DNA of 64,000 nt from an uncultured Verrucomicrobiales bacterium. GTDB lineage: Bacteria; Verrucomicrobiota; Verrucomicrobiia; Verrucomicrobiales; Akkermansiaceae. Both the position numbers and the translations under genes were made by a program. Of the stretch, positions 42,679-47,883 are shown in pieces. The stretch's first letter is position 1. The number at the start of each line of letters is the position of its first letter. The stretch lies in the NCBI GenBank assembly GCA_937928545.1, contig CALGJQ010000003.1, positions 1 to 64,000 on the forward strand, written 5' to 3'. The notes beneath the pieces are model-generated. The model was not told the origin of the DNA. It ran no database searches and was given only the letters and a program-made list of their open reading frames with translations.

Positions 42679-43353
42679 ATGAAACTCATTCTCGCTCTCA
42701 CCGTCGCCCTGAGCTCAATCCTCGGAGCCTTCGACATTCCCAAAGGGTCCTACAATCTCGCGCAGCTTGAAGAGGCCCAAAAAAGTGCCGCAAAAGCCAA
42801 ACAACCCGTCGCTTTCGTCATCACCGAGAAAAAGGGAATCGCCACCTGAGTGGCTTGCCCCGGAGCCGTCAGTGTGTCGGCTAGCAAAGCAGTTCTCTCC
42901 TTCTCGAAAAGCATCGTCGTTGACGTCTCCGAAACCGTTGGCCTCCCCGACCTCATTAAAAATTCTTACCGCACCGGTGGCGCTTCCATCCCCATCGTGA
43001 TCCTTGTCGATCCGAACATCGAAAAAATCTACGGCCGCTTCGATCACCCCGCGATGAAGAGCCAAAAATACGGCACCATCTTCAAAGAAGTGAAGGACAG
43101 CATCTCAAAAGCCAAGTCCGCCGGAACCTTCGCCACTGGCGGAAAAGCGCCCGTCATGATCAAGGTCGAAGACAGCAAGATGGAAACTTGGAAGAGCGCA
43201 GCAGGCACCGAAATCAAAGCAAAGCTCGTCGGCATCGAAGACGACTCCACTTATGTTTTTGAAACCGAAGCCGGCAAAACCTTCCGAGCAACGAGCGCAC
43301 AACTCGACAAAGAAAGCGTGGCAAAAGCTCGTAAAGCTGCCGGGCTAAAGTAA
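42679..43353 (+). CDS. Candidate secreted selenoprotein: thioredoxin-like domain plus SHD1-like domain, in-frame TGA
   Basis: One frame of 225 codons runs from ATG 42679 to the stop at 43351, broken only by TGA at codon 57 (42847-42849). It has a signal peptide (KLILALTVALSSILG), a thioredoxin-like segment (AKQPVAFVITEKKGIAT-TGA-VACPG, then SASKAVLSFSKSIVVD and ASIPIVILVDPN) and a C-terminal SHD1-like domain at about 170-220 (METWKSAAGTEIKAKLVG). TGA plus VAC makes a UxxC pattern where thioredoxins have CxxC. A 38-nt hairpin starts 3 nt after TGA and has bacterial SECIS features. Codon use is even on both sides of TGA, as expected of one intact gene. A nonsense mutation in a Cys or Trp codon is the alternative. 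Just 13 bp upstream of a CAP lipoprotein gene. Confidence 0.72.
42853..42890 (+). promoter_or_regulatory. Candidate bacterial SECIS hairpin
   Basis: Lower stem 42853-42858 with 42884-42890 (six pairs, one bulged A); internal loop CCCGG opposite A; upper stem 42864-42871 with 42875-42882 (AGCCG-T-CA with TG-T-CGGCT, one U-U mismatch); apical loop GTG. The loop G begins 22 nt after the TGA, inside the 16-37 nt window known for bacterial SECIS elements, with G in the first loop position as required. Confidence 0.65.
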
Positions 43354-43366
43354 TCTTAATCCCCAA

Positions 43367-43933
43367 ATGAGTAGTAACATTCTTCCCAGCATCGCGGGTA
43401 GCCTTCTTCTTTCCCTTCTCGCATCCTGCGGAGGTGGCGGAGGAAGCGTAGACCCAAATCAGGCCATCAAACCAAAGAGCAGTTCCCGAGATGGTGGGTC
43501 CGCAAAAGAGAAGGTCGTCGCCGCTCTCGCCCGCGGCCACTCCAAGCAAAAACGAAGCTCTCTCGTTTGGGATTCCCGCCTCGCAAACGCTGCCCGTGCT
43601 CGCGCCAGAGACATGGCAACCCGAGGATACCTAAACCATGTGGATCCCGATGGTTATGGCCCCAATGAATACATCACGAGAGCGGGCTACCGACTCCCAC
43701 TTCAATGGACCGCTTTTAAGGACGCAAACAACGTCGAGTCCTACGTCGCCGGCCTCAGCGATCCCGAAGCGTCCTTTAGGTGGTGGATGAATTCAAAAAA
43801 ACACGTCACCCACCTCCTTGGCTTCACCGACTTCTACGCTGACCAAACCCGCTTTGGAGTAGGTCACGTCCATCTTCCAAATTCCCCCCTAAGGCACTAC
43901 TGGGTCTTTCTCAGTGCTCCGCCTGAGAAGTGA
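43367..43933 (+). CDS. CAP-domain (SCP-like) lipoprotein
   Basis: Lipoprotein signal ending LLLSLLASC followed by a Gly-rich stretch, then a CAP domain: LVWDSRLANAARARARDMAT, YLNHVDPDGYGPNEY and WWMNSKKHVTHLL keep the His/Glu pattern of the cavity (H in LNHVDP, H in KKHVTHLL). 188 residues. It starts 13 bp after the candidate selenoprotein gene and is likely cotranscribed. CAP proteins bind lipids or peptidoglycan fragments; function here unknown. A second CAP lipoprotein lies at 47371. Confidence 0.85.
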   Translation: MSSNILPSIAGSLLLSLLASCGGGGGSVDPNQAIKPKSSSRDGGSAKEKVVAALARGHSKQKRSSLVWDSRLANAARARARDMATRGYLNHVDPDGYGPNEYITRAGYRLPLQWTAFKDANNVESYVAGLSDPEASFRWWMNSKKHVTHLLGFTDFYADQTRFGVGHVHLPNSPLRHYWVFLSAPPEK

Positions 43934-47370: not shown

Positions 47371-47883
47371 CTACCTCCCACGTCCATTCGAGAGCAGACC
47401 TACCACGAAATACCGCCCATCCGCCGGCAACCGCGTTTCGACTCCCATGATTTTTCGGTCCTTGTTCAAAATCGCTTTCCGATGAGCCGGACTATTCAAC
47501 CAGCCTGTGATTGTCCGCTGGGGCACTGCAGAGAGATCTCCAGCATAACCCACCATCACCACTTCTGAAAGGACCTGGTATTTCTCTTTGGTCGCTTGAG
47601 AGGCACGCTGTTTGAAATTTGCGTGGGCCATCTCACGAGTTGGCTTCCGCTTGGAGGGATGAACATTCCGCATCAAAAAATTACCATGACCGATCGCCAA
47701 ACGTCGAAGTCCCGCATCCGGAACCACCGTGCCGAGCCCTCGTTTCACTCGCTCTTGATTTACGGCCTGAAGGACCCGCGAACTCATGGCATTTTCCTCT
47801 GCACGAGGTGAAGTCCCACCGCAGGAGCTAAGAGTAAAAACCCCTACCATAAGAAGGCTAGCTTGGAGAAAAAATCGTTTCAT
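47371..47883 (-). CDS. CAP-domain (SCP-like) lipoprotein
   Basis: Signal peptide with lipobox TLSSC, then a 140-residue CAP domain: VLQAVNQERVKRGLGTVVPD, LRRLAIGHGNFLM, WLNSPAHRKAIL and YFVVGLLSNG. Conserved His in IGHGNF and PAHRKAI. Located between the pentonate genes and a PH-domain membrane protein; 170 residues. Role unknown; related in type but not close in sequence to the lipoprotein at 43367. Confidence 0.85.
   Translation of the reverse strand: MKRFFLQASLLMVGVFTLSSCGGTSPRAEENAMSSRVLQAVNQERVKRGLGTVVPDAGLRRLAIGHGNFLMRNVHPSKRKPTREMAHANFKQRASQATKEKYQVLSEVVMVGYAGDLSAVPQRTITGWLNSPAHRKAILNKDRKIMGVETRLPADGRYFVVGLLSNGRGR

Follow-up and report, generated by a model that had tools for sequence, protein, structure and literature searches.

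Whether a TGA within an otherwise open frame is a stop, an error or a codon for selenocysteine (Sec) is the question raised by one locus in the DNA of an uncultured Verrucomicrobiales bacterium. The window, by which we mean the whole stretch of 64,000 nucleotides analysed, holds a frame that runs from an ATG at 42679 to a TAA at 43351-43353, with a TGA at 42847-42849 as its single internal stop. The residues around codon 57 read IAT-U-VAC, a UxxC motif. An earlier note, made from the letters alone, had described one frame with one internal TGA, the same residues, and a coding character alike on both sides of it, and had proposed a candidate new selenoprotein family of the thioredoxin-SHD1 type; its coordinates are exact, and the comparisons below bear the proposal out. 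On these comparisons, we put the probability that UGA57 is recoded as Sec at about 0.93. The coding features are as follows.

42679..43353, + strand: predicted selenoprotein gene, 224 residues including Sec57, then a TAA stop (frame check; 11 same-genus orthologues)
42847..42849, + strand: in-frame TGA, codon 57, read as Sec57 (kept across homologues)
42856..42858, + strand: codon of Cys60, the putative resolving Cys in U-V-A-C (C60 in at least 90% of 38 family members)

A conserved TGA and the Sec machinery

The GC content per codon position is 0.57/0.38/0.62 before the TGA and 0.53/0.44/0.63 after it, and pN/pS among 11 orthologues is 0.29 before the TGA, 0.31 after it in the thioredoxin part, and 0.37 in the C-terminal domain. 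Since base composition and purifying selection are similar on either side, 42679-43353 is one gene. The search for homologues covered 97 genomes from the family to which the window's genome belongs, and almost all relatives are metagenome-assembled genomes (MAGs). Codon 57 is a TGA in each of the 11 genomes of the window's genus, counting the window's own (62-74% identity), and a TGA stands at the aligned place in 20/20 named loci found by a scan of named genome records (MAG loci titled Akkermansiaceae, Verrucomicrobiales, Verrucomicrobiota or "bacterium"; the twentieth is L110), a set that overlaps with the first since several named loci are the same genomes. Identity among these same-genus genomes and named loci is only 60-84%. 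The retention of the TGA in 11/11 orthologues shows that it is due neither to chance nor to sequencing error.

The window's genome, a draft assembly of 3.98 Mb in 75 contigs, encodes the complete set of genes for Sec insertion that the earlier note had asked for. SelA (480 bits), SelB (319 bits) and SelD (381 bits) score above their curated cut-offs, and tRNA-Sec (59.2 bits) scores above the Rfam cut-off, with the anticodon given as TCA by ARAGORN; selA, selB, tRNA-Sec and selD lie on four different contigs. SelD is often itself a Sec protein, and here too its gene (G000:C13:27449-28378, L050) has an in-frame TGA, in SCGGU. It is listed among prokaryotic selenoproteins (PMC13188914). C-terminal pieces of selA are also found at G000:C5:11411-11764 (L048, L049), on the strand of the intact selA and some 1.5 kb away from it, and are perhaps a decayed duplicate.

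The form of the codon follows the presence of this machinery. All 34 genomes with the TGA form are among the 47 of 97 that are selB-positive (SelB above the cut-off), whereas the 11 genomes whose only homologues are non-TGA forms are all selB-negative (Fisher 1e-10, computed on related genomes with kinship uncorrected). In 10 of these 11 the aligned residue is Cys, in the motifs CPKC, CPLC, CPRC, CPLA, CPKT and CPKV, the last three of which are without the second Cys; the selB-negative homologue in G015 is divergent and is without Cys at the aligned place. Trp is found at the Sec position neither in the homologues of these 11 genomes nor in the 38-member alignment, in which identity goes down to 21%, U/C57 is invariant and C60 is nearly so. 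The earlier note had held that Trp or other residues with no Cys at this position, or a genome without selA, selB, selC and selD, would speak against Sec; what was found is the reverse in both respects. A UGA kept at one position, Cys in Sec-less organisms and the presence of selA, selB, selC and selD together form the pattern of a bacterial selenoprotein, and these sequence comparisons support 42679-43353 as a member of a new selenoprotein family.

An unrooted tree of 83 members has Cys forms at two or more distinct positions; the clade that includes the window protein comprises 34 rows, every one of them a Sec form. Two flagged TGAs were rejected as Sec sites: in G019 it is the gene's own terminal TGA and the aligned residue is Cys, and in G015 it is not at the Sec position. 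Members of one genus without selB above the cut-off (g3: G028, G165, G092; L063, L108, L109) carry a short Cys form of the thioredoxin domain with CPLA, lacking both SHD1 and the resolving Cys.

Three readings of the TGA other than Sec have to be weighed. A nonsense mutation in a pseudogene, or a TGG or TGC misread through a sequencing or assembly error, might be suspected in a draft assembly of this kind, but the same codon is TGA in every same-genus orthologue, the 20 named loci come from many projects and are thus independent genomes that refute it, and purifying selection is similar before and after the TGA; the chance of such an artefact is negligible. Decoding of UGA as Trp or another amino acid under an alternative code would fit a genome with a UGA-reading tRNA, but both ARAGORN and Rfam call that tRNA a tRNA-Sec, and in other homologues Cys, but in no case Trp, occupies the aligned position. 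Moreover, several orthologues terminate with TGA, so TGA also serves as a stop, and a reassigned code hardly deserves any weight. Finally, the locus could encode two proteins, a 56-residue peptide ending at the TGA and a second product restarting at the adjacent GTG at 42850. Such a GTG directly follows the TGA here and in 9/11 same-genus orthologues, but GTC and GTA take its place in the remaining two, relatives have CCG, GGA, GCC or GAC, and the break, falling at the active site, would split the thioredoxin domain, which makes a restart very improbable. Recoding of UGA57 as Sec is the reading that we retain.

A SECIS-type hairpin downstream of the TGA

The candidate SECIS element after UGA57 is placed as follows.

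42859..42888, + strand: region of the SECIS-type hairpin, with a paired core at 42864-42882 and AGUGU as the apical loop at 42871-42875, 21 nt past the TGA

A hairpin can form directly 3' of the TGA in every close relative. At seven proposed pairs, 48 two-sided compensatory cells were counted, compared with 15.6+/-3.4 after shuffling and no more than 13 when the pairing was slid; the 44 sequences used for this count were selected for having AGU, and the loop was therefore judged on a survey of 69 UGA sites instead. In that survey, the loop starts with AGU at 61/69 sites at fixed spacing, which is 21 nt from the TGA in the UVAC and UPTC types and 18 nt, one codon shorter, in the UGPC type. Loops that start with GGU instead were seen in L099, L101 (CGGUCUG) and L106 (GGUAC). 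Among the 11 orthologues, codon heterogeneity is 0.107 in the hairpin versus 0.419 outside it (p = 1e-4), and Ser65 is encoded by AGT in 11/11, although AGT makes up just 26/196 Ser codons.

The bSECIS model sets the loop at 3-9 nt, its first two positions containing G, the stem at 4-16 bp, the spacing at 16-37 nt and the MFE at no more than -7.5 (PMC13188914). The window's hairpin conforms to it, with the loop AGUGU, the 21 nt spacing and an energy of -9.6 kcal/mol. This energy is not extreme, as synonymous recodings reach -13.8, and the model is permissive, since besides 53/66 UGA sites it also accepts 5/13 Cys sites and 41% of the synonymously recoded sequences. Because the folding-energy test is weak for single sequences, the SECIS call rests on comparison, which makes a convincing case for a predicted SECIS element after the TGA at 42847-42849. 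The hairpin that the earlier note had wanted checked is thus upheld as a conserved and covarying structure, but the folding energy of the single sequence is unremarkable. An Rfam scan of the region gave nothing beyond a chance snoRNA match. A SECIS model built for the family (R1) and run on the window's own genome matched significantly only the three family members; none of its next-best hits was a convincing gene with an in-frame TGA, and it did not detect the hairpin of selD. R1 is therefore specific to this family and is not a general finder of selenoproteomes.

Domains and likely role of the product

Three parts can be distinguished in the predicted protein, together with one conserved residue.

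42679..42729, + strand: residues 1-17, MKLILALTVALSSILGA, probably an N-terminal signal for export (judged by eye from the sequence pattern)
42748..43128, + strand: thioredoxin-fold domain, about residues 24-150 (AlphaFold2, Foldseek, relatives' Thioredoxin_7/9 matches)
42991..42993, + strand: Pro105 in IPIVILV, by position the counterpart of the cis-Pro loop of thioredoxins (conserved in at least 90% of the 38 members; the model has a strand at 106-110)
43156..43350, + strand: SHD1 (SLA1 homology domain 1)-type SH3-like domain, about residues 160-224 (Pfam in relatives, 2hbp fold match)

The N-termini are similarly hydrophobic throughout alignment A1, and the model has a low-confidence helix at residues 3-14; the product is probably exported. 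The AlphaFold2 model (pLDDT 85.8) consists of a thioredoxin fold followed by an all-beta domain. A helix begins right after the UxxC, and the beta-UxxC-alpha arrangement with a following Pro loop is that of a thioredoxin fold. Foldseek matched the thioredoxin part to ERp18, DsbH, thioredoxins and disulfide isomerases, modestly so, with a best E of 2e-3. Relatives match Pfam Thioredoxin_7/9, and the window protein itself stays below the cut-offs of Thioredoxin_7 and Thioredoxin_9 (14 and 13.7 bits versus 27 and 25). The models thus support the thioredoxin fold that the earlier note had read from the sequence, in a protein that is not filed in Thioredoxin_7/9.

A C-terminal SHD1 domain is likewise supported by models. 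SHD1 (PF03983) is matched by 9/38 family members, the best at 1.1e-8; the modelled domain superposes on 2hbp with a TMt of 0.74 and an rmsd of 1.5 A, and the family profile matches 2hbp with an E of 0.0026. The assignment made in the earlier note therefore holds for the family, but Pfam is blind to the window protein, which alone has no SHD1 match above the cut-off. A PDB sequence search with this single protein found nothing.

UGA57 is most probably decoded as Sec by tRNA-Sec and SelB, steered by the SECIS hairpin inside the coding sequence. Sec57, at the N-terminus of the active-site helix, would then be the selenolate that attacks a disulfide, and Cys60 would resolve the intermediate as a selenenylsulfide. 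Re-reduction might come from a membrane electron donor, and SHD1 might be a binding module that brings a substrate or partner outside the cytoplasm. The likeliest role, favoured by somewhat better than even odds, is that of an extracytoplasmic selenol/thiol-disulfide reductase or isomerase, at work in the periplasm or on the surface of the cell. Alternatively, Sec may be inserted into a peroxidase or an oxidase-type, disulfide-forming enzyme. Sec is common in peroxidases, and some relatives are without the resolving Cys (CPLA, UGST, UGPA), but the window protein has the complete UxxC and the fold matches are thioredoxin, ERp18 and disulfide isomerases rather than peroxiredoxins; roughly one chance in four seems a just estimate for such an enzyme, and a reductase or isomerase is preferred.

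Relation to known selenoproteins, paralogues and gene neighbourhood

A 2026 inventory lists 119 prokaryotic selenoprotein families, and an SHD1 protein is absent from it (PMC13188914). None of the NCBIfam models matches the family of the window protein, and a search of the open-access literature on selenoproteins and SHD1 returned one unrelated paper and no earlier report of the family. UxxC selenoproteins with a thioredoxin fold are well known as a kind (Trx, Trx-like, DsbA-like and thiol-disulfide isomerase-like; PMC13188914), and the window family shares with them the UxxC at the active site, a bacterial SECIS after the UGA, and Cys homologues. In contrast to them, it has an SHD1 fusion and does not belong to them at the sequence level. 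Thus, the kind is familiar, whereas the family and its architecture appear to be new.

The nearest family by description is GOS_C (NF045500), with a thioredoxin-like fold, UxxC and an occurrence in marine metagenomes; no SHD1 is noted in its paper (PMC2398784, PMC13188914), and 0/38 family members match its model at E <= 0.1. The Trx7/PDZ selenoprotein (NF041199) similarly combines Sec, a Thioredoxin_7-type domain and an extra interaction domain, but it has CxxU and PDZ where the window family has UxxC and SHD1, and two of 38 members alone reach its model, at an E of about 0.07. The closest solved folds to the thioredoxin part, of ERp18/AGR and DsbH/YphP type (1sen, 7tkv, 3fhk), differ in that they are Cys-type, without SHD1 and of low identity, with a Foldseek E of only about 2e-3. 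The SHD1 of yeast Sla1 (2hbp) superposes on the C-terminal domain, but Sla1 is a eukaryotic cytosolic adaptor.

A UxxC thioredoxin fold joined to SHD1 would be a new domain architecture for a selenoprotein family, and it occurs in Verrucomicrobiota, a phylum unnamed in the prokaryotic selenoprotein surveys compared. Sampling covered the class Verrucomicrobiia, where the few strong matches came almost exclusively from the order to which the window belongs. Because standard annotation takes the TGA for a stop, genes of this family would be broken up or missed by it. The rigid AGU loop offers material for how bacterial SECIS elements are read, and the Sec/Cys pairs in closely related genera, together with double-Sec paralogues, offer test material for the retention versus loss of Sec in bacteria.

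The window's genome has three family members, the window gene and two paralogues. One paralogue (G000:C11:130405-131247, L055) has a single Sec, in STUGPC, and the same AGU-loop hairpin. The other (G000:C25:4665-5369, L090) has two TGAs, in DTULSGSUGST, with the second Sec at the usual place and the resolving Cys lost. Its orthologue in a second species (L153, G065; 61% identity) keeps both TGAs, in DTULSIGUGST, and a member from another family (L091, G114) has two Sec in UGNUGPA. From these motifs, a diselenide active site is possible in the double-Sec paralogues. A broader reading, which we offer tentatively and at somewhat less than even odds, is that of an exported selenoprotein superfamily specific to Verrucomicrobiales, in which some branches may have swapped the resolving Cys for a second Sec upstream (ULSGSU, ULSIGU, UGNU), giving a diselenide active site, and in which SHD1 may tether the enzyme to extracytoplasmic partners. 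In several genomes, two Sec-type members lie close together in tandem (L056, G022:C51; L062, G052:C2; L099; L101).

Upstream of the window gene and divergent from it lies a gene for a Kef-like Na+/H+ exchanger with a TrkA-N domain, which adjoins the selenoprotein gene in many relatives. A CAP-domain gene starts 13 nt past the selenoprotein stop; a conserved operon of the two was considered and rejected, since the CAP gene is missing from many related loci. No match was found in the plasmid sequences searched. Two CAP (SCP/PR1-like) proteins, with N-termini that look lipoprotein-like by eye, are encoded within 5 kb in the window, at 43367-43933 and 47371-47883.
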